Source: Thermococcus sp.
Lineage (GTDB): Archaea; Methanobacteriota_B; Thermococci; Thermococcales; Thermococcaceae
Assembly: GCA_015520705.1 (NCBI GenBank)
Contig: WAPO01000115.1
Coordinates: 1-33,989, forward strand
DNA length: 33,989 bases
Reading direction: 5' to 3'
The notes beneath the pieces are model-generated. The model saw only the letters and a program-made list of their open reading frames with translations, searched no databases and had not been told where the DNA came from. The number at the start of each line of letters is the position of its first letter. Positions within the stretch are counted from its first letter, which is position 1. Shown here piece by piece: positions 9,115 to 31,081 of this stretch. The position numbers and the translations under genes were made by a program.

Positions 9115-9531
9115 TCAGACGAGGTGCTTCCCTGTTGTCGTCATGACGAGCTTTCCGTGCTTGACGCCTTTGAGGCTTATGAGTCTGTCGGCTATTTCCT
9201 TAACCCGCTTGGCTTTCCCTTTAACCACCACAACCTCAAGGCAGTTGTGTTCGTCCATATGCACGTGGAGGCTTGAGACGATTTCACAGACATAGTCATG
9301 CTGGAGGTCGAGGAGCTCCTTGACAACATCGGCCTCATCATGGTTGTAGACTATTGTGATTGTTCCAGCCACCTCTTCATCCCCTTCCTCCCACTCATGC
9401 CTCACAATGAAATCCCTGATGAGGTCTCTAATCGCTTCACTCCTGTTTGTATAACCCTTCCTTTCAATGATTGCATCAAACTCAGTGAGCAAATCATGGG
9501 GAATCGAAACACCAAAGCGCACTATCTTCAT
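9115..9531 (-). CDS. nikR: Nickel-responsive regulator NikR
   Basis: The product has 138 residues, the family's usual length. The N-terminal ribbon-helix-helix DNA-binding domain ([29 protein letters not shown]) is followed by an ACT-like nickel domain. The square-planar Ni ligands are all present: His78 (LQHDY), His89 and His91 (SLHVHMDEH) and Cys97, matching E. coli His76/87/89/Cys95 with an offset of two. The ATG at 9531 has GGTGAT upstream; the longer ORF-track start adds a non-homologous stretch. It probably represses nickel-uptake or nickel-enzyme genes when Ni is ample. It lies downstream of cooC on the same strand, inside the nickel-enzyme island. Confidence 0.95.
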
Positions 9532-9541
9532 GGTATCACCA

Positions 9542-9552
9542 TTACAGTGTAA
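9542..9552. promoter_or_regulatory. Palindrome TTACAGTGTAA at the nikR start region
   Basis: This is a perfect 5-1-5 palindrome 10 bases upstream of the nikR ATG. It lies downstream of an A/T-rich TATA-like stretch (AAATATTTTAAG on the minus strand), close to the expected transcription start. This position suits a repressor operator, possibly NikR itself. It is short, so the call is tentative. Confidence 0.3.
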
Positions 9553-9586
9553 GAAGGAGAGCTTAAAATATTTATGAAAAAAGAAA

Positions 9587-10492
9587 TCACTCAGCATAAT
9601 TTATCAGGATGTCTTTAAGCTCACTCACTTTCTTATAGGTTATCGAACTGGGATTTGAAAGGATGGCTTCCACTTCAGGATCATACTCCTCCACGAGCTC
9701 ATCGTACGGAATTATGGTTTTTGTCGTAAAATCATTAAAGCCGAGCTCACTCAGGATGTTTTCAACTTTCTCCAAGTGCGGATCCCTTTTTACCTTGTTA
9801 ATCACCAGATGTATATATTTGATCCCAAGCCCTCTGGCCAGTTTTGCTGCATCAACTGCGACCTGAACTGAATTGTATGTGGGCTCTGTAAGTATTACAG
9901 CCTGTTTGAATCCTCTTGCCAAAGCTCTGCCAAAATGCTCCAGACCTGCCTGGGTATCCATTAAAATAACCTCACCTTTGCGGAGATTTATGTATTTCAC
10001 CACAGCATCCAGCAGAGCGTTTTCAGGACACAGACAACCAGCAGCTGCCTGGACAACACTGCCCATTACAAGCAGCATGACATTATCGGGCCCAATAACG
10101 CCGAATCTCTCAACAACGTCCCTCACATCAGGTGTGAGCGAGAAATACAGCCCCCAGTTTGTTCCGGGTCTTGCTCCTGTCTTTTCCTCTATATAATCAA
10201 GATTCCTGTTTAGAGGAACTATCTTTTCTCTGATCTCCTTTGGAACTCCGAGTGCATGGGCAAGATTCATCTGGGGATCTTCATCCACAGCCAGAACCCT
10301 GTATCCCTCCCTGGCCAAAAGCCTTGCCAGGATAGCAGTCAGGGTTGTCTTCCCTACTCCACCTTTGCCTGTTATAACAACTCTGAATCCTTCTTCTTTT
10401 CTTTGCATTTGTGAGCGTTTACTTAACTCATCGGCTAGGCGAAATATCCTCCTTCTCCTCTCTTCTATTTCCGGCTTCAGTTTCTTCGACAT
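9587..10492 (-). CDS. cooC: CooC-type nickel-insertion ATPase for CO dehydrogenase
   Basis: The 301-residue MinD/ArsA-type ATPase has deviant Walker [12 protein letters not shown] (about 41-51), [10 protein letters not shown] (about 69-78) and [14 protein letters not shown]. The Cys153-Leu-Cys155 motif in [10 protein letters not shown] matches the CxC metal site at the CooC dimer interface. CooC inserts Ni into the C-cluster of CODH with ATP hydrolysis. An N-terminal extension of about 38 charged, helical residues precedes the P-loop, longer than in classical CooC. The start at 10492 has GGTGG eight bases upstream; the ORF-track start would include the promoter. It is divergent from cooF and upstream of nikR. 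Confidence 0.93.
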
Positions 10493-10522
10493 ATGATCCA
10501 CCATCTCAGTTATAAATACACT

Positions 10523-10555
10523 CTTATATATTGTTTTAGGTTTGAAAATCAAACC
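10523..10555 (-). promoter_or_regulatory. cooC promoter: TATA element and upstream inverted repeat GGTTTG-N5-CAAACC
   Basis: On the minus strand ATATATAAG (10523-10531) is a good TATA element about 35 bases before the cooC ATG. Directly upstream is the perfect repeat GGTTTG-AAAAT-CAAACC (10539-10555). A site just behind TATA suggests an activator. The repeat shares AAACC/GGTTT arms and a GAAAAT spacer with the repeat at the cooF promoter. Confidence 0.5.
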
Positions 10556-10772
10556 AACCTTATGAACATACTATTCTTTTTTTAACCATCAATGACCAAC
10601 TATGAATTTTTACATTCATCAAAATACATGAAGGTCTATTCTTGTACAACTTCTGGTTTAACACCTTTGGTTAATTAACTTGATGTAATAGTTAAAAGCA
10701 TAAATCGAACATTTTAAATTATATAAGGGAATTAATGTCCAATTCTGGATATTTTTCAAGAGTTTTTGATTA

Positions 10773-10795
10773 AAACCGAAAATGGTTTATAAAAG
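10773..10795 (+). promoter_or_regulatory. cooF operon promoter: AAACC-GAAAAT-GGTTT overlapping TATA
   Basis: The inverted repeat AAACCGAAAATGGTTT (10773-10788) runs directly into TTTATAAAAG (about 10786-10795), a strong TATA element. Transcription should begin near 10815, and cooF starts at 10826 after GGTGAATT. Protein bound to the repeat would touch or cover TATA/BRE, which suits repression. The regulator is unknown. Confidence 0.5.
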
Positions 10796-10825
10796 AAAAT
10801 TGTATTGTATAAACGGTGAATTGCC

Positions 10826-11434
10826 ATGACATCCCTAAATGCAAAGCCCACTATTTTCATTAATCCAGCAAAGTGCATTGGTTGCAAACACTGTGAGATA
10901 GCATGTGCCGTTGAGCACTCCCAAAGTAAAGACCTCTTCTCGGCAATCTTTGAAGAACCCCTGCCTCTGCCCAGAATCCACATCCTTCCTATGGGAGCCT
11001 ATAACGTCCCGATGAACTGCCGTCACTGCAATGATGCACCCTGTGTGGAGGTCTGTCCGACAGGGGCTCTCTACCATGATGACGATGGCGCTGTAATGAT
11101 AACCCCGGAGAAATGCATAGGATGCAAGATGTGTGCCATAGTCTGTCCCTTTGGTATACCTGAATTTGATGCCCTCAACGGCGTGATGTTCAAGTGTGAC
11201 ATGTGCCCGGATAGGAGGGCCGAGGGCAGACCGCCAGCATGTGTCGAGGCATGTAAGACTGGAGCACTCCAGTTTGGAACCATCGACGAAATTGTTGCAA
11301 ATGTCAGGAAGGAAACCGCCGAGAAGATAATCAAGCTGAAAGAAGGTGAATACGAAGAGGAATACAACGGATGGGACCTGTTTAGGTCCATGAATGCCGA
11401 GATTATTAGGATTAATGAGGGGGAGTCAAAATGA
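10826..11434 (+). CDS. cooF: CooF-type polyferredoxin, electron partner of CODH
   Basis: The 202-residue protein has four [4Fe-4S] ligand sets: Cys17/20/23/27 (CIGCKHCEIAC), Cys65/68/73/77 (CRHCNDAPCVEVC), Cys97/100/103/107 (CIGCKMCAIVC) and Cys124/127/139/143. This is the HycB/CooF pattern. It takes electrons from the CooS D-cluster and passes them to the next carrier. Its TGA overlaps the cooS ATG (ATGA), so the two are translationally coupled. It has no signal peptide and acts in the cytoplasm. Confidence 0.95.
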   Translation: MTSLNAKPTIFINPAKCIGCKHCEIACAVEHSQSKDLFSAIFEEPLPLPRIHILPMGAYNVPMNCRHCNDAPCVEVCPTGALYHDDDGAVMITPEKCIGCKMCAIVCPFGIPEFDALNGVMFKCDMCPDRRAEGRPPACVEACKTGALQFGTIDEIVANVRKETAEKIIKLKEGEYEEEYNGWDLFRSMNAEIIRINEGESK

Positions 11435-13401
11435 AGAAGTATAAGGAAGTTTCCATCGATAGTACTACCCAGCAGATGTATGAACGGGCTCAGGAGCTGG
11501 GTATAGAAACGGTATGGGAAAGGCTTGAGAAGCAGCAGCCCCAGTGTGGTTACGGTCTCCTCGGAGTCTGCTGTAGGAACTGTATGATGGGCCCGTGCAG
11601 GATAAACCCATTCGGCGGTGAGCCGAGAAGGGGAGTCTGCGGTGCTGATGCCGACACAATCGTTGCGAGGAACCTCCTCAGAATGATAGCCGCAGGTGCT
11701 GCTGCCCACAGCGACCACGGAAGGCATGTCGCCCTAACACTTCTCATAGCGGCCGAGATGGCCGAGAAGTTCAAGAAGGAGGGGAAGCCAGTTCTTGAAC
11801 TGGATAACATGGCTTCAAGCACACTCCCCTATAGGGTTAAGGATGTTGAAAAGCTCAAGGCTGTGGCAAAGAAGCTGGGCATAGAGATTGAGGGTAAAAC
11901 CATAAGAGAACTGGCCAAAGAGGTTGCCGAGATAGCTCTAAGGGATTTCGGGAAGCAGGATGAGGAGGCTTTGAGCTTCCTGAAGGCATATCTCAACCCC
12001 AAGACCTATGAGATATTTGAGAAGGCTCCAGAGAAGGCTGGAATGCCATGGTTCGAGAACGGTATCCTACCGAGGGGAATAGACAGAGAAATCGTTGAGA
12101 GCTTACACAGGACACACATGGGGACAGACCACGACCCGGTGAGCATACTCCTGCATGGACTCAAAACTTCGCTCGGCGATGCATGGGGAGGATCGCTCAT
12201 AGCGACTGAACTCCAGGACATACTCTTCGGCACGCCGCAGGTCATAAAGGCAGAGGCTAACCTTGGTGTCCTCAAGGAGGACTACGTCAACATAGTTGTC
12301 CACGGCCACGAGCCTGTTCTTTCTGAGAAGATAGTCGAGGCAGCCCAAGACCCAGAGCTTATAGAGCTCGCCCAGAAGCTCGGTGCTAAGGGTATCAATG
12401 TCGTTGGAATGTGCTGTACAGGCCTTGAGGTTCTCATGAGGCACGGCATCCCCATAGCAGGAAACTTCCTCCAGCAGGAAATGGCCATCGTAACCGGCGC
12501 AGTCGAGGCAATGGTGGTTGACGTCCAGTGTATAATGCCCGCCACCGTTGATGTTGCCAGATGCTTCCACACCAAGATAATTGACACCAGCCCGATAGCC
12601 ACCTTCCCAGGAGCAATACACATAAAGTTTGACGAGCGCAGAGCTGATGAAATAGCTAAGGAGATTGTAAAGACCGCCGTCGAAAACTTCCCGAACAGGT
12701 CAAAGAAGAGGGTTGAGATTCCAAAGGAGAAGATGTCCGGCTACGTGGGCTTCAGTGTCGAGGCCATACTCAAGCACTTCGGAGGGAGCCTCAAACCTAT
12801 AGAGGAAGCCATCGTAGAGGGTAAGATTAAGGGTGTCGCCGGCCTCGTCGGCTGTAACAACCCCAAGATAAAGCAGGATCACAACCACATTAAGATAGCA
12901 AATGAGCTGATGAAGAGGGATGTTCTGCTAATTGGAACAGGATGCTGGGCTACCGCTGCCATGAAACATGGCATCTTCCTGCCTGAATATGCTGACACAG
13001 ACAACGTCGGCCCCGGCCTGAGAGAGTTCGCTAAGGAATGGGGAATACCACCGGCCATCAATATGGGTTCGTGTGTTGACTGCACGAGGATGCTTGTTCT
13101 GGCAGATTTGATAGCTAGGGACATTGGCGTTCCCATCTCAGCGTTGCCTGTTGTGGGTTCTGCCCCAGAGGCAATGACCGAGAAAGCAGTTTCAATCGGA
13201 ACCTACTTCGTCGCGAGTGGAATCACGACCCATCTCGGCATAGTGCCACCGGTTCTTGGAAGCCCAGCGGTAGTCAAGATCCTCACCCATGATCTCTATG
13301 ACATTGTTGGAGCGGCCTTTATAGTCGAACCAGATCCATACAAGGCAGCGAAGCTGATGTACGAGCACATAATGAAGAAGAGAAAGGAGCTCGGCATCTG
13401 A
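11431..13401 (+). CDS. cooS: Ni-dependent anaerobic CO dehydrogenase, catalytic subunit CooS
   Basis: The 656-residue enzyme catalyses CO + H2O = CO2 + 2H+ + 2e-. D-cluster Cys39 and Cys47 and B-cluster Cys48, 51, 56 and 70 occur at the same numbers as in the Carboxydothermus enzyme (CGYGLLGVCC, CMMGPC). The proton-path histidines His93, 96 and 99 are present (HSDHGRH). C-cluster ligands are His293 (HGHEP), Cys329 or 328 (GMCCTG), Cys367 (DVQCIMP), Cys475 (GCNNPK), Cys505 (GTGCWAT) and Cys548 (GSCVDC). The catalytic lysine lies in TEKAVSIGTYF. Nothing essential is missing, so it should be active. It has no acetyl-CoA synthase partner here, so it is the monofunctional type. Confidence 0.97.
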   Translation: MKKYKEVSIDSTTQQMYERAQELGIETVWERLEKQQPQCGYGLLGVCCRNCMMGPCRINPFGGEPRRGVCGADADTIVARNLLRMIAAGAAAHSDHGRHVALTLLIAAEMAEKFKKEGKPVLELDNMASSTLPYRVKDVEKLKAVAKKLGIEIEGKTIRELAKEVAEIALRDFGKQDEEALSFLKAYLNPKTYEIFEKAPEKAGMPWFENGILPRGIDREIVESLHRTHMGTDHDPVSILLHGLKTSLGDAWGGSLIATELQDILFGTPQVIKAEANLGVLKEDYVNIVVHGHEPVLSEKIVEAAQDPELIELAQKLGAKGINVVGMCCTGLEVLMRHGIPIAGNFLQQEMAIVTGAVEAMVVDVQCIMPATVDVARCFHTKIIDTSPIATFPGAIHIKFDERRADEIAKEIVKTAVENFPNRSKKRVEIPKEKMSGYVGFSVEAILKHFGGSLKPIEEAIVEGKIKGVAGLVGCNNPKIKQDHNHIKIANELMKRDVLLIGTGCWATAAMKHGIFLPEYADTDNVGPGLREFAKEWGIPPAINMGSCVDCTRMLVLADLIARDIGVPISALPVVGSAPEAMTEKAVSIGTYFVASGITTHLGIVPPVLGSPAVVKILTHDLYDIVGAAFIVEPDPYKAAKLMYEHIMKKRKELGI

Positions 13402-13432
13402 GCTCTTTTCTATTATTTTTTGAGGTGATAAC

Positions 13433-13924
13433 ATGCTTGAACGCCTCAAGAGACTTCTGGGAAAGAAAAAGAACATTCCAGTTCAGGATATCGGGAGGGA
13501 AATAAAAGCACCTGAAGCTCCTGAAAAGAAGGAAGGCTTAAACGTAGATGCCTGCATAGGGTGCGGGCTATGTGCACAGCTCTGCCCTCACAACGCGATT
13601 TTTGTGATAGATGATGATAAGAAGGTCATCTCCTTCCACCCCGAGCTCTGCAAGGAGTGCAACTTTGAGTGCAACAGTATATGCCCGACCAAGGCCATTG
13701 AGGGTCATCCAGATAGAGTCGACCTTGAATTTGAATATGCCCACTGTCAGGTCTGCGGGAAGAAGCTTGATTATACTGTTAAAACCGCAGAATTCCTCTA
13801 CCACAAGCTCGAAAAGTTCTATGACCATCCCGAGATAGTTTTCATGTGTGATAAGTGCAAACATGATCGTGTTAAGGAGTTTCCAAGCGAATATCTCAGA
13901 TTCTTTGGGGGAATGCTGAAATGA
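13433..13924 (+). CDS. Two-cluster ferredoxin with C-terminal zinc ribbon
   Basis: The product has 163 residues. A basic, lysine-rich N-terminus (1-35) is followed by two [4Fe-4S] motifs: Cys41/44/47/51 (CIGCGLCAQLC) and Cys73/76/80/84 (CKECNFECNSIC). The C-terminal half carries two CxxC pairs (Cys105/108, Cys139/142) that probably bind zinc. The start has GAGGTGATAAC upstream, 31 bases after cooS. Its stop overlaps the next ATG. Since the flavoprotein that follows lacks the N-terminal Fe-S domain of GltD, I infer this protein supplies it in trans, passing CODH electrons to the flavin. Confidence 0.85.
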   Translation: MLERLKRLLGKKKNIPVQDIGREIKAPEAPEKKEGLNVDACIGCGLCAQLCPHNAIFVIDDDKKVISFHPELCKECNFECNSICPTKAIEGHPDRVDLEFEYAHCQVCGKKLDYTVKTAEFLYHKLEKFYDHPEIVFMCDKCKHDRVKEFPSEYLRFFGGMLK

Positions 13925-14973
13925 GGGGCATAAAATTTTCCTTTCTCTGCAGGAGCAAACCCGAGCCAACAGGAAAGAGGGTTGCCATTGTTGGCGCCGG
14001 TCCTGCAGGATTGACGGCAGCAGGTTACCTCGTTTGCAAGGGACACGCTGTCGACATATACGACAAGATGCCCGAACCCGGTGGATTAATGCTCTTTGTA
14101 ATCCCAGAATTTAGGATACCCATAGAGAGAGTCAGACTCGGTGCGAAGGAACTTGAAGAAGAGTTTGAGGTAACCTACTATCCCAGAACCAAGGTAATGG
14201 AGGGAAGCAGAGAGGATGAGGGAGATGAGTTCTACGAGAGGACTGTAAGGCTCAGCGAACTCAGGGAGAAGTATGATGCTGTGCTGATATCAACGGGAAT
14301 ATGGAACGTGAGAAGGATAGGCATTCCCGGGGACGACCTTGATGGGATATTCTCACCTCTTGAGCTTCTATTCTGGATAAAGGGTCACAAGATGGGTTAT
14401 GTTCCAAAGGAAAAGGTTCCGGAGCTTGAGAACAAGAAAGTGGGGATAATAGGGGCCGGTTTGACTGCTGTTGATGTGGCTTTTGAGTGCAACAGACTTG
14501 GAGCAGAAGTTGAAATATTCTACCGCAGAACGATAAGGGAGGCTCCTGCTGGGGCTTATGAGATAAACCTCCTCAGGCGGAGAGGGGTGAAGTGGTTTGA
14601 GCTTGTGACACCGAAGAGAGTCATCGGTGAAAATGGTCGTGTCAAGGCAATAGAACTCCTCAGAACCCGTTTAGGTGAGCCTGACGAGAGCGGGAGAAGG
14701 AGGCCAATACCTATACCAGGTTCAGAGTTTCAGGTGGAACTCGATTATCTGGTCTTTGCCATCGGGATGGTTTCAACCCCACCGGTTAATGGAGGATATT
14801 TAGCAACAGACAGGAGGGGAAGATTAATCGTTGATGGAAGGCACATGACAAACGTCGAAGGAATTTTCGCAGCCGGTGATGTTGTCAACGGACCCACCAA
14901 AGTAGGGAGAGCTATAAAGGATGGCCTTTACACAGCTGTTTCAATTGACCGCTGGCTCAGGGGGGAGCTGTGA
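13921..14973 (+). CDS. GltD/NfnL-like FAD-NAD(P) oxidoreductase
   Basis: The product has 350 residues. The FAD Rossmann motif VAIVGAGPAGLTAAGYL is at 21-37, then GGLMLFVIPEFR as in GltD/NfnL. A second Rossmann motif (VGIIGAGLTAVDVAFE, 174-189) is followed by YRRTIREAPAG, whose Arg pair is where this family binds the NADPH phosphate. FAAGDVVNGPTKVGRAI near the end closes the FAD site. The roughly 130-residue N-terminal Fe-S domain of glutamate synthase small subunit is absent. Coupled by ATGA to the ferredoxin gene before it. It probably moves CO-derived electrons between ferredoxin and NAD(P)H; NADPH preference is inferred. Confidence 0.88.
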   Translation: MRGIKFSFLCRSKPEPTGKRVAIVGAGPAGLTAAGYLVCKGHAVDIYDKMPEPGGLMLFVIPEFRIPIERVRLGAKELEEEFEVTYYPRTKVMEGSREDEGDEFYERTVRLSELREKYDAVLISTGIWNVRRIGIPGDDLDGIFSPLELLFWIKGHKMGYVPKEKVPELENKKVGIIGAGLTAVDVAFECNRLGAEVEIFYRRTIREAPAGAYEINLLRRRGVKWFELVTPKRVIGENGRVKAIELLRTRLGEPDESGRRRPIPIPGSEFQVELDYLVFAIGMVSTPPVNGGYLATDRRGRLIVDGRHMTNVEGIFAAGDVVNGPTKVGRAIKDGLYTAVSIDRWLRGEL

Positions 14974-15497
14974 TGGAGAGGGAATACCTCTATTTAGACT
15001 ATCTCACCTGCATAGGATGTGAAACCTGCGAGACTGTTTGTGGCTTCATCCATGATGGCAACCCTTACATAAGGATTTACGTGACAGAGAACAAGCAGTA
15101 TCTTCCCATAAACTGCAAGCACTGTGACGATGCTCCATGCCTACGTGTCTGCCCGACACATGCCATATATCGGGATGAGGAAGGTGCAGTTAGAATAGCG
15201 GAGAACAAGTGTATAGGCTGCCTAGTCTGCCTGCAGGTCTGCCCCTACGGGGTGCCCTTCTACAGTCTGAAGGTCAGGGCGATAACCAAATGCGACATGT
15301 GTGCCGAGAGAAGGGAGGAGGGTCTTGAACCCGCATGTTCCCTGATGTGCCCTGCCGAAGCTATACAATATGGCCCGCTGGAGATTGTTCTCGAACTCGT
15401 TAGAGAAAGACGCGCCAAGAACATACCTGAACATCAGAAGGAAGTGACAGAGGAGGAGCTCGCTAAGAGCGTTAGTTCAGGCTATATCTTTCTGTAG
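14973..15497 (+). CDS. HycB/CooF-like polyferredoxin
   Basis: The 174-residue protein has four [4Fe-4S] sets: Cys13/16/19/23, Cys48/51/56/60, Cys80/83/86/90 and Cys107/110/122/126. It is a paralogue of the CooF at the operon start; compare CKHCDDAPCLRVC with CRHCNDAPCVEVC. The ATG at 14973 overlaps the flavoprotein stop and has GGGGGGAG five bases upstream, so I prefer it to the GTG at 14970. It may connect the flavoprotein to another acceptor, such as a hydrogenase encoded elsewhere, or serve as a second branch from CODH. Confidence 0.88.
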   Translation: MEREYLYLDYLTCIGCETCETVCGFIHDGNPYIRIYVTENKQYLPINCKHCDDAPCLRVCPTHAIYRDEEGAVRIAENKCIGCLVCLQVCPYGVPFYSLKVRAITKCDMCAERREEGLEPACSLMCPAEAIQYGPLEIVLELVRERRAKNIPEHQKEVTEEELAKSVSSGYIFL

Positions 15498-15524
15498 TTC
15501 TCAAAATTTTTGAGGATGTTGCCT

Positions 15525-16010
15525 ATGGAACTCAATGAAATAATCGGAAATGCCAAGAGGATAGTTATCTGTGGTCTCGGAAATGAAAAATATGGGGACG
15601 AAGCTTTTGGGGTTATTGTTGCCAAGCTTTTAAAGCCCCTGATTCTCAATCCGGATGTCACTGTTATAGAATGCCATGAGATTCCCGAGAAACATGCAGG
15701 ACCCATAATCAGGTTTAAACCGGATTTACTCCTTCTGATTTCTCCCATTAACTATGGAGGGAAAGCCGGAAAGCTTGTGGTGGCTGATCCATGGGAAGCT
15801 CTCGAAGATCTACCTGAGACTCTCCAGCCACAGCTTAGAGTTACCCTTAATCATCTTAGAGAGCTGTTACCCGATACCAGATTTATGCTCCTCGGCTGTC
15901 AGATTAAAGACAAGAGAACATTCCGCAGATTAAGTCCTGAGGTAAAAGATAGTGCCAAAGCTCTTGTTCTTTCCCTCAAAAAGGAGCTTGAAAAAATTCA
16001 AACTTCTTAA
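15525..16010 (+). CDS. HycI-like hydrogenase maturation protease homologue lacking Ni ligands
   Basis: The product has 161 residues. It aligns without gaps to the HycI at 17258 over at least 120 residues, including NAKRIVICGLGNE. In HycI-type proteases the Ni of the hydrogenase precursor is bound by an acidic residue after GD, an Asp and a His. Here the first is Glu26 (GDEAFG, acceptable), but the Asp position is Ser73 (LLISPINYGG) and the His position is Leu100. The paralogue has Asp26, Asp73 and His100. It therefore probably cannot act as a normal endopeptidase. The start was chosen by alignment with the paralogue. It is the last gene of the CODH operon, 27 bases after the ferredoxin gene. 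Confidence 0.85.
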   Translation: MELNEIIGNAKRIVICGLGNEKYGDEAFGVIVAKLLKPLILNPDVTVIECHEIPEKHAGPIIRFKPDLLLLISPINYGGKAGKLVVADPWEALEDLPETLQPQLRVTLNHLRELLPDTRFMLLGCQIKDKRTFRRLSPEVKDSAKALVLSLKKELEKIQTS

Positions 16011-17257: not shown

Positions 17258-17731
17258 ATGAACATCACCGAACTCCTGAAAAACGCCAAGCGCATCGTCA
17301 TCTGCGGCATAGGCAATGAGAACAGAGGAGATGATGCCTTCGGTGTCGTGGTTGCGGAGAGATTAAAAAAGATTCTCCAGAAGCCCGGTATCATCGTGAT
17401 AAACTGCGGGGAAGTTCCGGAGAGCTACACAGGTGTCATAAAGCGCCACAGGCCGGATGTGGTTGTTTTCATAGATGCCATAGAATTTGGAGGAAAGCCC
17501 GGAGAGATTGTAACAGCAGACCCCGAGGGGACGCTGGGGAGTGCCGCCTCAACCCACAGCCTGCCTCTGAGGGTTCTGGTTCAGTATCTGAAGACAGAGC
17601 TGAAGGACACAGAATTTATCCTAATCGGCTGCCAGCCAAAGAGCACGGCCCTTTTCGGCGAGATGAGCGGGGAAATTAAAAAAAGCGCCGAAGAGCTCGT
17701 GAAAATGCTGGTCGATTCGCTGGAGGGCTAA
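17258..17731 (+). CDS. hycI: Hydrogenase maturation endopeptidase HycI
   Basis: The product has 157 residues. GNENRGDDAFG holds Asp26, VVFIDAIEFGG holds Asp73 and STHSLPL holds His100, the three residues that sense Ni in the precursor. The enzyme trims the C-terminus of a [NiFe]-hydrogenase large subunit after Ni insertion. GGAGGTGG lies upstream of the ATG. It closes the hypA-hypB-hycI operon and its stop overlaps the stop of the convergent gene by four bases. No hydrogenase subunit is in the window, so its substrate is encoded elsewhere. Confidence 0.93.
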   Translation: MNITELLKNAKRIVICGIGNENRGDDAFGVVVAERLKKILQKPGIIVINCGEVPESYTGVIKRHRPDVVVFIDAIEFGGKPGEIVTADPEGTLGSAASTHSLPLRVLVQYLKTELKDTEFILIGCQPKSTALFGEMSGEIKKSAEELVKMLVDSLEG

Positions 17732-18681: not shown

Positions 18682-19812
18682 TTAAATTACCCTCACCATC
18701 CTCTCAGCCCATGGACTTATGCGCACCCTCATATAACCTCTCAGCCTCTCATCAACCTCTCTGTTCCCTGTATAAACCCTCATCACTCCCTTTTCAATCT
18801 TAGAGGGCGTTGCAATGACGATTATATTGTCCTTCGGTATATGCTTCAGAACCTCGGCCGAGAACTGCTGGTTGCCCCTGCCGAAGAGGAAGTTCAGGCC
18901 TCCGATTACAGTGACGATGATCTTAGGATTTCTATCAACAAAGCGGAGAAGGTCTCTCTCCTGTGCGTCCTTAACGAGAAGCCTCGCCTTTCCGTCTCTA
19001 ACTTCCACAACATCCACGCCAAGGAGGGTTCCCTTTATACCGAGCCTGTCCTTCAGCCTTTTAACCGTTGAGCCGGCGCCGAGGAAGTATATGCCGTCTT
19101 CAAGCTCCTCTAAGAGGGCTTCAACTATCGCCTCAACATCCTCGACTTCGTTTGTTCTGCTCGGCTCCTTGGCCCCCTGAATGAGCAGCTCAACATAAGG
19201 AGTCAGCGCCTTCCCGTAATGTTTGGGCCTAACTTCATCATGCCTGAAGGCATCTTCATCCAGATCCATCACGTCCCTCTCAGTCACATTGGCATTTCCT
19301 TTCAGGAATTCAACGAGAATTCCGGCAGCATTCTCAGGAGAAGCCGCAAACACGCCGGAAAACATCTTAACTCCAGTCGGGATTCCAAGAAAAGGTTTCC
19401 TTCTGTCGATCGCAAGGTAGATATCCCTCGCAGTTCCATCCCCACCTGCAAACACTATAAGTTCAACCCTATCGGCCATCATTCTGGCGAGGGTTTTCGT
19501 GTCCTCATCCCTCGTATCAGGGATTTTAACCCCGAGAATATTCCTGTATCCAATCTCCCTATGCCTGAGAACCTCAAATGGAAAGCTGAAATCCTTCAGA
19601 GCATCTTCTCCAAGTCCATCAGGGCCTGTAAGAAACTCAACCTCCCGGCTCTCCGGGTAGTGGGAAAGTTCATGGAGGAAGAGCCTCGTCAGGTCAAGTG
19701 CCACAGGTCTGGCTCCTCTCCTGATTGCCTCCTCAACAACACCGTCAGTGCCCTTCAGGGCGACCTTTCCGCCCATTCCGGCGATTGGATTGATTATAAG
19801 TCCGATTTTCAT
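18682..19812 (-). CDS. ATP-NAD kinase-like protein (COG3199 type)
   Basis: The product has 376 residues. The N-terminus KIGLIINPIAGMGGKVALKG and the motif VFAGGDGTARD (about 140-150) define the NAD/diacylglycerol kinase fold. GIPTGVKMFSGVFA follows, as in the archaeal COG3199 group. NADP would be made from NAD, or a related small molecule phosphorylated; the true substrate of this group is uncertain. I start at the ATG at 19812, with GGGTGG upstream; the GTG at 19821 lies in that site. It follows the radical SAM gene by one base and is probably cotranslated. Confidence 0.85.
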   Translation of the reverse strand: MKIGLIINPIAGMGGKVALKGTDGVVEEAIRRGARPVALDLTRLFLHELSHYPESREVEFLTGPDGLGEDALKDFSFPFEVLRHREIGYRNILGVKIPDTRDEDTKTLARMMADRVELIVFAGGDGTARDIYLAIDRRKPFLGIPTGVKMFSGVFAASPENAAGILVEFLKGNANVTERDVMDLDEDAFRHDEVRPKHYGKALTPYVELLIQGAKEPSRTNEVEDVEAIVEALLEELEDGIYFLGAGSTVKRLKDRLGIKGTLLGVDVVEVRDGKARLLVKDAQERDLLRFVDRNPKIIVTVIGGLNFLFGRGNQQFSAEVLKHIPKDNIIVIATPSKIEKGVMRVYTGNREVDERLRGYMRVRISPWAERMVRVI

Positions 19813-19813
19813 A

Positions 19814-20764
19814 TCATCCACCCCTGCTCTTCAGCTTCCTCATGTAGAACCTCTCCCCGCGGTATTCAATCTGAATAAGCTTCCCATCTCTTAAAAGCTT
19901 TTCAACGATGCTCCATTCAGCCCCGGCTTTCTCCAGAAGTCTTTTAACGGCATCCTCCCTCATGGGATGCACCGCTGTTATGCTGAGCAGGTCTTCCTCC
20001 ACATCACCCGTAAATGCAAATGCATTCCCCTCATAGCCTATGAGGTATTCCACCCTTCCCTCCCCGAGAACTTCAGTGAATGTCTGGAATGCGAGGTTTA
20101 TTGTCTCCTCATCCGCCGGTTTTACCCATTTCTCCCATGGAGGCCTCGTTGGAACAGCTATATAAGCCACATCCGGCTTGAGCAGCTTCAGAAAGCTGGC
20201 TATTCTCTCAAACTCATCCCCGTATTCAATCCCTCCAATTAGCATGGTCTCCGTTACAAGCTTCCCCTCGAAGGCTTTTCTGAACTCAAGCATTCCGTTG
20301 AGTATATCCTCCAGTCTGAGGCTCTTATGGGGTCTGTCAATTCTCCTCCACAGACTCTCTGTGACAGCATCGAGCTTGAGGGAGACAAAATCAAAGCTCT
20401 GCAGGTCATTTCTCACGTCCTCACGCCATATGAGGGAGGAATTTGTGAGGATTGCAAGGGGGATTCCGAGCTCCCTCAGGAGCTCCACCTCTTTCCCGAG
20501 GTTTATGTCCAGAGTGGGCTCACCGTCCGGCACGAATGTGAGGTAGTCAATCCTCTCACCCCTGCTCAGGGCTTCTTGCACCTTTTCTCTGACTTCATTT
20601 AGTATGAAGGTCGGTTCGTAGAAGTGCCTCCTTGCGGCTTCCATTTTCAGGGTTCTTCCTATCTGACAGTAGACACAGGCATATGAGCACACCTTATCGG
20701 GAATGTTGTTTATCCCGAGACTCCTTCCAAGCCGGCGTGAAGGGACAGGACCAAAGGCTATCAT
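19814..20764 (-). CDS. Radical SAM protein (COG0731 type)
   Basis: The product has 316 residues. The cluster motif CSYACVYCQ (CxxxCxxC, near residues 26-33) binds the radical-generating [4Fe-4S]. The opening FGPVPSRRLGRSLGINNIP and FVPDGEPTLD are typical of the COG0731 group. The reaction is unknown; some relatives modify tRNA. The C-terminal 60 residues look like a winged-helix (EDAVKRLLEKAG, LIQIEYRG). The ATG at 20764 with GGTGGTGAT upstream is preferred, since the ORF-track start lies in promoter sequence. First gene of an operon with the kinase-like gene, divergent from the MFS gene. Confidence 0.88.
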   Translation of the reverse strand: MIAFGPVPSRRLGRSLGINNIPDKVCSYACVYCQIGRTLKMEAARRHFYEPTFILNEVREKVQEALSRGERIDYLTFVPDGEPTLDINLGKEVELLRELGIPLAILTNSSLIWREDVRNDLQSFDFVSLKLDAVTESLWRRIDRPHKSLRLEDILNGMLEFRKAFEGKLVTETMLIGGIEYGDEFERIASFLKLLKPDVAYIAVPTRPPWEKWVKPADEETINLAFQTFTEVLGEGRVEYLIGYEGNAFAFTGDVEEDLLSITAVHPMREDAVKRLLEKAGAEWSIVEKLLRDGKLIQIEYRGERFYMRKLKSRGG

Positions 20765-20859
20765 ATCACCACCGGAATTAGGTTGCCCTAAAAGCGTATA
20801 AACCTTGCCCATCTGAATGCACAGCTTAGAGCGTCAGGCACATAAAGCGAACAGGAATC

Positions 20860-25108: not shown

Positions 25109-28100
25109 TCAGCCCTTGAGGGCCTTTTCAAGTATCTTGCATGCCCTGTCCATGTCAAGATATGCCCGCCTCAGGTATATGAAGCTCTTCGAGTTTGAGA
25201 AGACTCCGCGGAGTGACACTTTCTCATAGAGGCTAACCGCTTTGTCTCTGTATTTGAGGGCCTCTTGAATCGTCTCGTTGCTGACGTTTGCGGCAAGCGC
25301 ATCCTTGTACAGCTTATCGAAGAGATGGGCTTTACCCAGATACTTCATGTAGAAGATATAGTTCAACAGTGAAACTCTAGCCTTTATAATTGAAGGCGTG
25401 AGATACTCAACGTAGACCTCTCCTGGAGAGTGTAGCTGTACCTTAATAGTCAAGAGGCTGTATGTATCGTATTGCGTGAGCTCCGTGCTTATAACATCGG
25501 CATCAACGGTTTTAACTGAATACTTGACGATATCCTTCGGAAGGATGACATAGAGGGTTGTGATTGCCTTGTGGGTTCCTTCAAGCTCCACGGTAATCTG
25601 AGCCTGTGTGCTCGAGGTTATGTTTTTGGCTTCCTTCACCTCTGCTGTTCCACCCTCTGTTTCGCCGATGAACACCGGTGCGCTTATTCCCTGTTCTTCA
25701 AGAGTCTTGGCGGCTTCAGGTGTGACCGGGGATTCTTCCTGTGTGCCGTAGGCCACCATCAATTTGGAGCCATTGTATACCCTGGCAGCTATCTTCAGGG
25801 TAACATTGTCTGGGAGGAATTCATAGGAGTATATTTCGCCGTTTGTTACGCTTACTGAGTAGAACGTCCTGTTCAGAGGCACATGAGCATACATTGTAAC
25901 AACAGCACCCTCATGAGCTGCAGCAAACTCTGCTATAATCGAACCAGTTGACACCGTTAAGTTCGTTACCTTAGCATAGCCAATGCTCTCCATCAATTTT
26001 GCAGTTTCAACTGACTGCTCTGGCCTAACACGCACAATGAAGCAGTTGTTGTCCATATTCACGTCATCACTGGCCTCAACAACAATCTTGTATGTGTGTA
26101 TGGAATCATCGACAATGGGTATCGTCAGGTTAGCTTCATAGGTTTCGCCAGCGTTTATCTGTGAAATTGTTTTGCCTATAACTTCCACAGGAGCACCGTC
26201 CCTGTACAGCAACACTTTGACTCCAGTAGCGTTATACGGCCCGTGATTTGTTATGTAGAGCGTTACTGTGTATGTGCCCCCAAGTTCAGGTATTCCTGTA
26301 GTATTGACGGCATCTATAGCGATGTCGTATGGAGACGGGGAAAGCGTTACCGGAACCTGGAAGAGCACCGGGTTCTTGCTGGTTCCAATTATAAGTATTC
26401 CTTGTAAGGGTTCTGTAGCGCTCAGATGCTCTGGAGTCAGGTTATACTTGACATTAATCTTGTATTCTCCGTTCTCCTGAGTAATGTTATTAACCCAGAG
26501 CTCATCTCCCTGAATTGTGGTTATCTCCAGATTATACGTGGCCTCACCAGGAGCAGGATTGTTGTAGGAGTAGACCTCAATTACATACTGTCCGGGGCGT
26601 GGGAAGTTTATGGTAACTCTCTCGTCTGCAGTTGGCGTTGTTGAGCTTCCAACAAGTTCAAGGGTGCCGTTGGCATTGTAATACACGTAGAGATCAAGGT
26701 CAAGTCCGACGAGGTCATCGTAGATGCTGTTCAGGTTGACATCGAGAATTGGAGAGTTGGTCACATTAACTGTATAGAAGTCTGAATCGCCGGTTTGTGG
26801 TGCCACAACATTGTTATATACCAGCGGAGTGCTGAATCCAACCGCAGTAACTGTTGGCTCTCCCGCCCACTCTGGCAGGTCAACTGTAAATGTCTTCTCC
26901 CCTGTCTGCGATGTGAGGACACCAACCCATTTCTCCGGATACATCTTTGCGAGTCCAACTTTTCCTGAGAATGTCCTGTAACTGGAGTTCCCATCAAAGA
27001 CGACGTTATGGAGCCACAGAGCGTTGAGTCCTTCGATTGCCTTACCGGCTATGAGCTCCTCGTTGCCTCCGCTTGAAGTCTGATACATGAACATGCCTCC
27101 GGCAACATAACCGTCGTCGCTTCTTGCAATCTCAGTGAGGCGATATGGTCCCATGACGTCCGGGAACTCAAAGCTCCACCCATCAACAGATGGTGCAAGC
27201 AGATGGAGGTTGATATCGGTTATCGTGCCATCCCATGCAACATCAGCAAGGACATATGTGCCCTTATCTACCTCCGGCACGTTGAAGTAGAAGAGTCTCC
27301 AGTCACCGCTTTCATATCTCCATCCCCAGTCCATATAGCCATAGACGTTGTTGTTGTCATACAAACCTGTTGCATTTGTGTTGCCTCCAAATTCAAAGTT
27401 CGGTGTGGGTGATGCAACCACTACACTAACCGGAATCGTTGTCTCAACACCGTCGTGTTTGAGGTATATAGCGCCCTCATACACACCATACTGAGCATTC
27501 TCCGGAACCGTTAATGTTGCTGTGAATGTGGCAGTGCCATTGGCTGAGATGTTTAGAGTGTTTTTGTCAATACTGACCCAGCTCCACGGAACTCTCTTAT
27601 AGAATTCAAGCTTGACTTTCGCCGGATATGTCTCTGTCTTTCCATAATAACGGAAGATATCCCTGATCTGGATCCACATGTCATCATGCATTTTCTTCAG
27701 CGGGTCTCCAATCATTGCGGAGGCTACTGTCCCTTCTTTTGCAGATTGCTGGAGCAGGTTAAGAGTTGGAACCGTGGAGTTTGTGTCAGGATCATAAACG
27801 TAGGTCACGTCATAGACCCTGAAGAAAGGATATGCATCTGGTGAGTAGTCCATGCCCTCATCAAAGTAGGTGTAATTAACATAAAGGGTTACCTTCATGA
27901 GCTCGGTTCCATTGGGTATCAGACTGCCTATCGGATAATAGTTCCATGAGTTTCCGACAACATCAAACTCCACTTCTCCTATCTTCTGGAAGACCTCTGC
28001 AGAGACATTGACCTCTTTGGCTGATGTTGAGTTCATATTCTCAACTTCGAAGACCTGAGTGTCATTCTCCCCAGGATACAGGACATTGGCAAGTCCCTTA

Positions 28101-31081
28101 TATTCTGTCTTTCCAGCCTGCCAGCTTGATGGTGAGACTACTATTCCATCCATGTGCATTGCTGCCTCAACAGCCCTGTAGGAGTTAAGGAATCCTGCAC
28201 CCTGACTGAAGACATCATGGTTGACGTTCTTTGCAGTGCTCATGAGAATATTCCTAACTTCCTGAGAAGTCGGCCAGACCCCGTATGTGTCGTAGTATGC
28301 TTCATAAACGAGCGCCGCTATACCTGCTGCCATGGGAGTTGCCAGACTTGTTCCCGCCCAGAGATCACTGGCCCAGAAGCCATCCCCGTACATATTAACC
28401 GGTTCACTTCCAAGCGCAAACTCTCCAACCGCCAGCACATCTGGGTCGGGCTGTCCGAGAGCGTTCGGGCCTCTGTTGGAGAAGTCTGCAACGTCACCAT
28501 AGTTTGCAAGCTCCATTGACCACGGGCCGTTATCATACCCGAAGAGTCCTCTGTATCCCCACTCCACGGAAGCTCCAACGGTTATTATGAAGGGTGATGC
28601 ACCTTCACTGGTCACCGTTCCATAGCCTGGCCCACCATTTCCAGCCGCGAAGAAGAATGTTGCTGTTGGAGCATAAACGTGAGTAACGTAGTATAGGAAT
28701 CTGTCAGCCCATGTGTAACCTTTGTTTATGACAGATGAGATACCATAGCTGTTGCTCGCTATCTGAGCCTCATCTCCAGTTCCCGGCTGCCCATCATAGC
28801 CTTCCACTGCAAAGAAGACATAGTCAATCCAGCTGCCTCCCTGATAGAGGGAACCTTCGGGGATTACCTTAGCGCCGATTGCATTACCAAATGTGAGGCC
28901 AAAGAATGTTCTGCCCCTCGCAGCCACTGCTGCAGCACATAGGGTTCCGTGATCTCCACCTGCGGTGAAGGGAGTTCCTATCATGAAGGCGACCAGCCCT
29001 CCATTCTCTGGAATCCTCAGAGGAAGTCCCCATCTCGCCGCAACTTCTTGAGAGTATGGAATCGGAGTGTGTCCATCAGCTATGAAGTAGATCAACCCTC
29101 CTGACAGATCAGCATACCCATCCTGACCATAGCTGTTTGTGAAGGTGTTCCAGAAGTCAAGCTGGATTACTGGATTGTCTTTGGTGTGCCCAACATCCTT
29201 GTTAAAGTCTATAACAGTTGCAGGTGCTATGTCAGCATAGACTGTATCGTAAGTCTGGTTTGCATGTGGGTCAGTTACGAGGACAAAGCCACCATACCAG
29301 TATGTCCACAATGCAAGATCTGGATGGAGACCAATTTTCATCGTTCCACTGACCGTTGGAACCTCCAGAGATTTGTTGAGCGGGAGCTTTATGTCCACAT
29401 AGATCCCATGAAGTTGGGGATCATAGGCATAGGCTGTGTATCCCACGATGAGAGGAGACGCATTGGCATCGGGGTATATGTAGTCTGCATTCAGGTCAGT
29501 TGGACTCTCATAAAGACCCCAGTAAACTTCTCCTCCATAGAAAGCATTGCCCGAATAGTCATAGATAACTGTCGGAACAGGGAAGTCCTCTAGAACAGCG
29601 GTTGTATTTACATGGAGGTAATCCACTGTAAAGTTGTACTTGACTGTCGTGTTGTTTAAACCTCCATCTTCCAAGTAGTCAGGACTTATAAGCCACAGCT
29701 TTCCGCCGTTCTTTAGGTAATCCGTCAGGTTCCCTATATCTGAATTTGTGAGGGTGTTGTTATCAGTTGCACCTGTGAACCATATGACGAGGCTGTAGTT
29801 GCTGAGCACAGTGACATTCGGGCCATTGGCAGTTTCGTTTGGAACTTCATAGTAGGTGTAGTTGACCCCAAGATTCTCAAGAGCCGTCATATAGAATGTC
29901 TCAAGGGAGTCCCCTCCGTCATCATCAACGAGAAGGACATTGGTGACATTACCAATCCAGTTCAGCGTGTCATTAACGAGAGTCGTTCTCTCAGTATCAT
30001 TGGGAATGTTTGCAAGGCTCATGCTTGTAAAGACCGTCGTAAAGTTCCCTTTATAACCGATTCCAAAGTATCCTCCCATCAAATACGGTTGCACGTCATA
30101 GCTGGTGTTTGCATACCAGGAGCCTAGATAACCCGTGAATGTTCCAAAATCCGCAAATGTGTATCCATACAAAAGATACGCCAGCAGTGAGTTGTCATCA
30201 AATGCAATTGGCCAGCCGTAGTATGGCGAATCCGGGTTTGTATCTACTGCATAGGCATCCTGAAGGTCTGGATTTCCGAAGTCAACACCGCTGTCAATCA
30301 CGGCCACCTTGACACCAGAACCGGTTATGCCGAGGTTAAACCACGTAGCCCAGGAGCCATGGTGATATATTGCGAAGTAGTCCTGTGGTTCAGGGGTTGT
30401 TTTGGCCTTTACTTTGGATTCGGTTATAGTTACATCTCCTTTTCTTGCAGGGCTCTGATCCTGAAGCTCTCTAAGCTTGCCTGAAAGTGTGTTTCTGAAA
30501 AGAAGAACCTTCTTTCCATCTAATGTGCCCTTTGGTTTCCACTCACTGATTCTTCCAGCAAATTTTGAGTGAGGTAGGGTTATCTTCTCCTTTGAAGATG
30601 AGTCCACAGTATCCTTTTTGGCTCCTATGGGTTCTACAGGATTTATCCTGGTAACTGCCTCGACCTGGGGGATCGAGGCTATTTTTATCAATGTCGGAAT
30701 GCTCTCCTTCTCAACCGGGAGCAGTGCCATGTAGATAACATTCCCAAGAATCTTTGTCTTTCCTACAACTTTAACTCCCCTCAATTTTTGAGATATATCC
30801 TCTTTTGCTATAATATGTATCATGATGAACTTCTGACCCTCTATTTCCATGACATTTTTTGATGTTTTACCGTTTAGAATGTCAAATAGAAGAGGTTCAA
30901 TCTTCTCTTTCGGTGAAATCTGGGTTTTTTCATGAGTTTTCCCTAAATTGACCTTTGATACTGAAACTGTGGCAGGGGTGGTTGTTGATGAAGTCCCTGC
31001 GCCCACATAGGGGAGGGCTAATGGAACCAGCGAAACTACCATTAAAAGAACTATCAAAAGACTCAGCGTTTTTTTATTCAT
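25109..31081 (-). CDS. Giant secreted pyrolysin-like subtilisin (S8) protease
   Basis: The product has 1990 residues. Signal peptide about 1-29 (LSLLIVLLMVVSLVPLALP), then a propeptide with an inhibitor-like fold to about 225. Catalytic Asp263 (VAVIDSGVD), His711 (GGDHGTLCAA), oxyanion Asn815 (FAAGNGG) and Ser912 (GTSLATPMAAG) are all present. About 450 residues separate Asp and His, including a flavodoxin-like domain at about 380-470 (VLLVDDDGGDS, LVIWFTGATDN, YLKNGGKLWLIS). The C-terminal half has beta domains: a PPC-like one (LDLDLYVYYNANG) and a CARDB-like one (PYDIAIDAVNTTG, YITNHGPYNATGVKVLLYRDG). A helical tail ends it. Many N-x-S/T sequons suggest heavy glycosylation. No membrane anchor is evident. 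GGAGGTG precedes the ATG. Confidence 0.95.
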   Translation of the reverse strand: MNKKTLSLLIVLLMVVSLVPLALPYVGAGTSSTTTPATVSVSKVNLGKTHEKTQISPKEKIEPLLFDILNGKTSKNVMEIEGQKFIMIHIIAKEDISQKLRGVKVVGKTKILGNVIYMALLPVEKESIPTLIKIASIPQVEAVTRINPVEPIGAKKDTVDSSSKEKITLPHSKFAGRISEWKPKGTLDGKKVLLFRNTLSGKLRELQDQSPARKGDVTITESKVKAKTTPEPQDYFAIYHHGSWATWFNLGITGSGVKVAVIDSGVDFGNPDLQDAYAVDTNPDSPYYGWPIAFDDNSLLAYLLYGYTFADFGTFTGYLGSWYANTSYDVQPYLMGGYFGIGYKGNFTTVFTSMSLANIPNDTERTTLVNDTLNWIGNVTNVLLVDDDGGDSLETFYMTALENLGVNYTYYEVPNETANGPNVTVLSNYSLVIWFTGATDNNTLTNSDIGNLTDYLKNGGKLWLISPDYLEDGGLNNTTVKYNFTVDYLHVNTTAVLEDFPVPTVIYDYSGNAFYGGEVYWGLYESPTDLNADYIYPDANASPLIVGYTAYAYDPQLHGIYVDIKLPLNKSLEVPTVSGTMKIGLHPDLALWTYWYGGFVLVTDPHANQTYDTVYADIAPATVIDFNKDVGHTKDNPVIQLDFWNTFTNSYGQDGYADLSGGLIYFIADGHTPIPYSQEVAARWGLPLRIPENGGLVAFMIGTPFTAGGDHGTLCAAAVAARGRTFFGLTFGNAIGAKVIPEGSLYQGGSWIDYVFFAVEGYDGQPGTGDEAQIASNSYGISSVINKGYTWADRFLYYVTHVYAPTATFFFAAGNGGPGYGTVTSEGASPFIITVGASVEWGYRGLFGYDNGPWSMELANYGDVADFSNRGPNALGQPDPDVLAVGEFALGSEPVNMYGDGFWASDLWAGTSLATPMAAGIAALVYEAYYDTYGVWPTSQEVRNILMSTAKNVNHDVFSQGAGFLNSYRAVEAAMHMDGIVVSPSSWQAGKTEYKGLANVLYPGENDTQVFEVENMNSTSAKEVNVSAEVFQKIGEVEFDVVGNSWNYYPIGSLIPNGTELMKVTLYVNYTYFDEGMDYSPDAYPFFRVYDVTYVYDPDTNSTVPTLNLLQQSAKEGTVASAMIGDPLKKMHDDMWIQIRDIFRYYGKTETYPAKVKLEFYKRVPWSWVSIDKNTLNISANGTATFTATLTVPENAQYGVYEGAIYLKHDGVETTIPVSVVVASPTPNFEFGGNTNATGLYDNNNVYGYMDWGWRYESGDWRLFYFNVPEVDKGTYVLADVAWDGTITDINLHLLAPSVDGWSFEFPDVMGPYRLTEIARSDDGYVAGGMFMYQTSSGGNEELIAGKAIEGLNALWLHNVVFDGNSSYRTFSGKVGLAKMYPEKWVGVLTSQTGEKTFTVDLPEWAGEPTVTAVGFSTPLVYNNVVAPQTGDSDFYTVNVTNSPILDVNLNSIYDDLVGLDLDLYVYYNANGTLELVGSSTTPTADERVTINFPRPGQYVIEVYSYNNPAPGEATYNLEITTIQGDELWVNNITQENGEYKINVKYNLTPEHLSATEPLQGILIIGTSKNPVLFQVPVTLSPSPYDIAIDAVNTTGIPELGGTYTVTLYITNHGPYNATGVKVLLYRDGAPVEVIGKTISQINAGETYEANLTIPIVDDSIHTYKIVVEASDDVNMDNNCFIVRVRPEQSVETAKLMESIGYAKVTNLTVSTGSIIAEFAAAHEGAVVTMYAHVPLNRTFYSVSVTNGEIYSYEFLPDNVTLKIAARVYNGSKLMVAYGTQEESPVTPEAAKTLEEQGISAPVFIGETEGGTAEVKEAKNITSSTQAQITVELEGTHKAITTLYVILPKDIVKYSVKTVDADVISTELTQYDTYSLLTIKVQLHSPGEVYVEYLTPSIIKARVSLLNYIFYMKYLGKAHLFDKLYKDALAANVSNETIQEALKYRDKAVSLYEKVSLRGVFSNSKSFIYLRRAYLDMDRACKILEKALKG

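Follow-up and report, generated by a model that had tools for sequence, protein, structure and literature searches.

The 33,989-nucleotide contig WAPO01000115.1 of Thermococcus sp. (assembly GCA_015520705.1), analysed here over its whole length as the window, carries an operon built around cooS, the gene for the catalytic subunit of a Ni-Fe carbon monoxide (CO) dehydrogenase (CODH). Here we argue that the probable product of this operon is a cytoplasmic CO:NADP+ oxidoreductase; in it, CooS and its ferredoxin subunit CooF would replace the formate dehydrogenase module of the architecture known from Fdh3, the NADP-dependent formate dehydrogenase of Thermococcus onnurineus. As envisaged, CooS would oxidise CO to CO2, and the electrons would pass from the CooS D-cluster to CooF, on to a HycF-like and a second HycB-like ferredoxin, and then to the FAD of a flavoprotein, which would reduce NADP+; CooC would mature CooS, and a HycI-like pseudo-protease would be a dedicated accessory, perhaps for CooS maturation or assembly. 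The proposed path from CO to NADP+ is suggested by the ability of the homologous Fdh3 cassette to reduce NADP+ and by the retention, in the flavoprotein, of both the FAD motif and a pair of arginines. We infer the formation of the complex, the electron path, the preference for NADP and the direction of the reaction.

A probable NADP cassette beside the CO dehydrogenase

The unit consists of six genes on the forward strand. It opens with cooF (10826..11434), which by family models and conserved cysteines encodes a four-cluster, HycB-like ferredoxin subunit, followed by cooS (11431..13401), by the gene for a small Fe-S protein with similarity to HycF (13433..13924), by the gene for a GltD/NfnL-like FAD flavoprotein (13921..14973), by a gene for a second four-cluster HycB-like ferredoxin, Fd2 (14970..15497), and by a gene for a HycI-family protein (15510..16010). 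The order of the first five genes, as given in an earlier sequence-only reading of this DNA, was borne out, with all open reading frames in place and the family assignments confirmed by models (Fer4 dicluster for the ferredoxins), but the sixth, co-directional gene had been missed. The same reading had described ATGA overlaps at three junctions; 4-nt overlaps are indeed present at cooF/cooS, Fe-S protein/flavoprotein and flavoprotein/Fd2, but only the first two read ATGA, the third being GTGA if Fd2 begins with GTG (an ATG at 14973 is an alternative start). The gene order is not a matter of chance, since it returns in relatives at 74-96% protein identity.

CooS is full-length, matches the Prismane/CODH model TIGR01702 (695 bits) as well as CODH structures in the PDB, and, as had been claimed, has every cluster ligand: C39, C47, C48, C51, C56, C70, H291/H293, C329, C367, C475, C505, C548 and K585 are all present, so that the ligands of the B-, C- and D-clusters and the catalytic lysine and histidine are in place. 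CooF and Fd2 are paralogous 16-cysteine proteins that share 42% identity. The small Fe-S protein contains 12 conserved cysteines, which make up two [4Fe-4S] motifs and a CxxC-x30-CxxC metal site. Its AlphaFold model (pLDDT 77, with low confidence in the first 32 residues) matches over its length HycF of the Escherichia coli formate hydrogenlyase (7z0s_F, E 8.4e-9), which suggests a HycF-like fold; HycF has the same arrangement, its CxxC-x34-CPxC quartet holding one metal ion (PMC9474812). Hence, the zinc-ribbon part of the former "two-cluster ferredoxin/zinc ribbon" is more aptly described as a metal site of the HycF type.

The flavoprotein, the predicted exit of the electrons, belongs to NF009409/PRK12770 (putative glutamate synthase subunit beta; 494 bits against a cut-off of 343) and aligns with the large subunit of Pyrococcus furiosus NfnI (5jca_L, E 6e-65), its residues 17-347 falling on residues 153-471 of that chain. 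The FAD motif GxGxxG is present as GAGPAG at residue 25. A predicted NADP(H) site is marked by the arginine pair R202-R203 (YRRT), which is kept in the aligned relatives and occupies the position of Arg204-Arg205 of Fdh3B, modelled at the 2'-phosphate of NADP (PMC8965080).

Relatives of this flavoprotein outside CODH operons point in the same direction. It is 60-63% identical to copies encoded, in other Thermococcaceae, in cassettes that likewise include the HycF-like and HycB-like genes (loci L122, L127 and L128) and adjoin the genes for a formate dehydrogenase alpha subunit (TIGR01591, 935 bits) and a formate transporter. No second copy of such a cassette was found in the genome of the window, the next flavoproteins there matching at 38-39% and being Nfn-like. 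The order of the Fdh3-type cassette, HycF-like ferredoxin, NADP flavoprotein and HycB-like ferredoxin, is found in the window as well. Purified Fdh3 of T. onnurineus, a complex of Fdh3A/B/G1/G2, has a reducing activity of 77.4 U/mg with NADP+ and of 11.2 U/mg with NAD+, whereas FdhA alone reduces no NADP+ (PMC8965080). The two systems thus share a HycB-like Fe-S protein, a small Fe-S protein, a GltD/NfnL-like NADP flavoprotein and another HycB-like Fe-S protein; they differ in that Fdh3 has the tungsten-containing FdhA and a formate transporter where the window has CooS, CooC and the HycI-like protein. Since the homologous cassettes adjoin formate dehydrogenases of the Fdh3 layout, the earlier suggestion that the partners of CooS are directed to NAD(P)H gains weight. 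Other archaeal relatives of CooS are also accompanied by pyridine-nucleotide modules, NuoE/F/G-like in Archaeoglobaceae and PadH/Nox-like in a Candidatus Tiamatella contig.

Several points weigh against this reading. The place of the HycF-like protein in the electron chain is uncertain because purified Fdh3 contains no equivalent of it (PMC8965080). The catalytic pair itself can apparently work without the cassette, since one relative (G044, with a CooS 70% identical) has cooF and cooS but no such cassette. Furthermore, CooF could equally pass electrons to free ferredoxin, and Fdh3, too, reacts slowly with ferredoxin.

Distribution and relation to known CO dehydrogenases

Among the 94 Thermococcaceae genomes surveyed, CooS of the kind found in the window (type A) is present in 17, the window and one broken copy included, at 94-96% identity. 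All carriers belong to the genus Thermococcus, where they make up about a quarter of the genomes searched, and extension of the survey to 115 genomes of the phylum yielded no further ones. A second kind (type B), about 60% identical, occurs in 15 of the 94 genomes, including one (G033) that bears both types. In a tree of CooS, type A, together with G044 and the Tiamatella sequence, and type B fall into separate supported clades; an attempt at dN/dS estimation found the synonymous sites among relatives saturated. Every type-A locus with enough flanking sequence shows a divergent cooC followed by cooF, cooS and the genes for the HycF-like protein, flavoprotein, ferredoxin and HycI-like protein. 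The flavoprotein gene is linked to cooS in 16 of the 17 genomes and lies on a separate contig in the remaining one (G054). This core order is constant, whereas the genes farther out vary from one locus to the next (some loci lie among hyp genes, others beside 2-oxoacid oxidoreductase genes or unrelated ones), and the type-A unit is conserved and transplantable. The search for the gene order that the sequence-only reading had proposed recovered it, within this survey, in type-A genomes, all of them Thermococcus, and the five-gene form cannot be regarded as unique.

Several individual loci deserve a record. In three draft genomes, the HycI-like gene or neighbouring operon genes contain stops or breaks, which may reflect sequencing errors or decay. 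In G054, cooS has a stop and a frame change and the flavoprotein gene two stops (contigs C31 and C62), so that the operon looks broken. The G044 locus (L047, 7078-10619) has a divergent cooC and cooF beside its cooS and lacks the flavoprotein cassette. The contig of Candidatus Tiamatella (Thermoproteota; L059, 1-3704) encodes a CooS 86% identical to the Thermococcus type; behind its gene come those for a PadH/NADH-oxidase-like flavoprotein and for CooC. Either the CODH was transferred laterally and has another partner there, or the contig was binned wrongly. Finally, in two Archaeoglobaceae contigs (L060, 9409-14923; L061, 9385-14874), cooF and cooS are followed by a three-gene module, which in the former matches NuoE, NuoF and NuoG/HoxU-like models, a third link between CODH and pyridine nucleotides.

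An enzyme of this type has already been purified, namely TcCODH-I of Thermococcus sp. AM4, the cooC gene of which lies on the opposite strand outside the operon (Benvenuti 2020, as cited in PMC13056359); the citing paper treats this operon type as specific to Thermococcus and describes it as confined to few species of Thermococcus or Pyrococcus. As in TcCODH-I, the CODH of the window belongs to clade E, its operon is free of hydrogenase genes and its cooC lies outside, on the opposite strand; in addition, its CooS is 95% identical to the type-A CooS of G033 and belongs to a clade apart from the hydrogenase-linked type. Judging by sequence, G033 is probably strain AM4 or a very close relative, given also that its type-B CooS matches the structure 6t7j end to end. 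Unlike this genome with its two CODHs, the genome of the window has one; a search for a second found none, giving a single weak 20-bit match. In T. gammatolerans, CooC, CooF and CooS were reported in 2009 outside a hydrogenase cluster of the T. onnurineus type, as is also the case here, and hyp genes were described near the Mhy1 locus; the portion of that account consulted mentions neither a flavoprotein cassette nor a sixth gene (PMC2718504). The idea that this form might be undescribed in Thermococcales is not supported, both because of the 17 carriers and because of these two reports (PMC2718504; PMC13056359). Our literature search, the coverage of which did not extend to Benvenuti 2020 itself, found no account of an Fdh3-like NADP cassette or of a HycI-like gene in the operon; given that coverage, we do not claim priority for either.

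CODHs tied to NAD(P)/FAD oxidoreductases are a known class (PMC6344411; PMC13056359). As in the CooS-CooF-FNOR systems of Geobacter and Clostridium (PMC4703632; PMC6344411), the window operon is hydrogenase-free and would connect CODH, via CooF, to an FAD/NAD(P) oxidoreductase (FNOR), and for Geobacter carrying such an operon, CO-dependent reduction of NADP+ has been measured in extracts (PMC4703632). Unlike the bacterial FNORs, which belong to COG1251 (PMC6344411), the window flavoprotein is not of the CoA-disulfide reductase/NADH oxidase type but of the PRK12770/GltD/NfnL type and is accompanied by two extra ferredoxins. The CODH-Mbh-Mrp cluster of T. onnurineus, of type B, shares with the window a homologous CooS (about 60%), CooF and CooC but, unlike the type-A operon, includes hydrogenase and antiporter modules (PMC4731540). 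In agreement with what had been stated for the surroundings of cooS, no hydrogenase or antiporter genes were found anywhere on the contig, which sets the window apart from the CODH-hydrogenase (ECH/Mbh) clusters.

Other possible fates of the electrons

Electrons from CooS and CooF could pass to soluble ferredoxin and on to a membrane hydrogenase encoded elsewhere that forms H2; the flavoprotein would then lie on a side branch or exchange electrons between ferredoxin and NADP. Several large subunits of the Complex1_49kDa type are encoded on other contigs of the genome, and the window operon lies among hydrogenase-maturation genes; other type-A loci, however, are found away from hyp and hydrogenase genes. 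Homologues of hydrogenase or antiporter genes occur only at the far ends of the stretches of two relatives (L036 and L038), past the hyp genes. Strain AM4 grows on CO with formation of H2 (as cited in PMC10025317), although its hydrogenase-linked CODH-II can account for this growth. Since the tight linkage of the flavoprotein to CooS is left without explanation, we consider this route rather unlikely.

A role in disposing of CO and in redox defence, of the kind suggested for CODH-IV of Carboxydothermus, would have CO-derived NADPH feed the reduction of peroxide or sulfur rather than growth. Detoxification has been proposed for CooS-CooF-FNOR clusters (PMC4703632; PMC6344411), and CooS and CooC of T. 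gammatolerans were detected in cells without added CO (PMC2718504), but no rubrerythrin or peroxidase gene was found in the operon, and we regard such a role as improbable; it concerns physiology and is compatible with a CO:NADP+ oxidoreductase. Electron bifurcation or confurcation, with CO and a second carrier coupled at one flavin, is suggested by the homology of the flavoprotein to the bifurcating subunit NfnL and yet appears very unlikely, because the alignment begins at NfnL residue 153, the N-terminal domain being lacking, and because the operon contains no NfnS-like or second flavin subunit; besides, Fdh3 has a simple formate-NADP activity, and the potential of CO is low enough for direct reduction of NADP+.

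The sixth gene, the gene neighbourhood and the meaning of the operon

The sixth gene begins about 20 nt after the Fd2 gene, probably at ATG 15516 or 15525, and its product belongs to TIGR00072, with a match to HycI (5zby) at E 3.5e-31. In the related protease HybD, nickel is bound by Glu16, Asp62 and His93 (PMC2670836). In the alignment of the HycI-like orthologues, these positions are taken by Tyr or Glu, by Val, Ser or Ala, and by Phe or Leu, respectively: the first is Tyr in nearly all orthologues and Glu in the window, whereas the Asp and His positions are substituted in every orthologue aligned, so that the full set of three ligands is not retained. The genuine HycI encoded in the same window (17258-17731) keeps Asp, Asp and His there. 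A profile of the HycI-like group scores above 160 bits in exactly 17 of the 94 family genomes, all with type-A CODH, and in none of the 77 others, a co-occurrence that reflects shared inheritance in one genus, not 17 independent events; genuine HycI proteins score below 150 bits. G044, which lacks the cassette, also lacks this gene. Tentatively, the protein may be proteolytically dead and may help, as a CODH-dedicated chaperone, to assemble CooS or to load it with nickel, or may check the quality of the complex of CooS, CooF and the NADP cassette.

On the reverse strand, divergent from the operon, lies cooC (9587..10492), encoding the CbiA/ParA-type ATPase of CODH nickel insertion, orthologues of which (76-88%) are found in every type-A locus that has this flank. 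Its reading frame reaches TTG 10552, but the start is probably ATG 10492, because a TATA-like box (10521-10534) falls within the TTG-started frame and because the start of the orthologue in L032 agrees. Behind cooC, a gene for a NikR-like nickel-responsive regulator (9115..9597, reverse strand; NF003381, 230 bits) is a further accessory, the position of which varies among relatives. An alignment of 16 upstream regions reveals, in the divergent cooC/cooF promoter region, a block, ATAACCnnnGGTTTCACACTTTTGGRTAAT, kept in most of the genomes (10646..10676 in the window; upstream regions L032-L046), which is a putative operator. Several of these regions also contain a TGACTN4AGTCA palindrome, decayed in the window. 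Upstream of cooF (10784..10820, forward strand), a TATA-like box (TTTATA) and a ribosome-binding site (GGTGA), assigned by consensus only, are conserved in the 16 relatives.

The surrounding hydrogenase-maturation cluster, with hypD, hypF and hypE upstream of the unit and hypA, a Mrp-type ATPase gene and hycI downstream, had previously been overlooked. Farther downstream of the hyp genes, a gene for a NAD-kinase-domain protein adjoins one for a radical SAM protein with a weak match to viperin-like models (18682-20812), and the stretch 25109-31081 encodes an unusually large predicted protein, a 1990-residue subtilase with PPC and CARDB domains.

If its proposed role is correct, the HycI-like protein would be a case of a hydrogenase maturation factor put to work on CO dehydrogenase; it offers a concrete new target in CODH maturation. 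An enzyme that regenerates NADPH from CO and withstands temperatures near 80-90 °C would serve biocatalysis. For Thermococcus itself, if the proposed wiring is right, the same NADP cassette would have become the partner of two different C1 enzymes, formate dehydrogenase in one case and CODH in the other; the persistence of CODH in genomes without a hydrogenase module would be explained; and the genus would possess two CO economies, type B yielding H2 and an ion gradient, and type A yielding NADPH directly.

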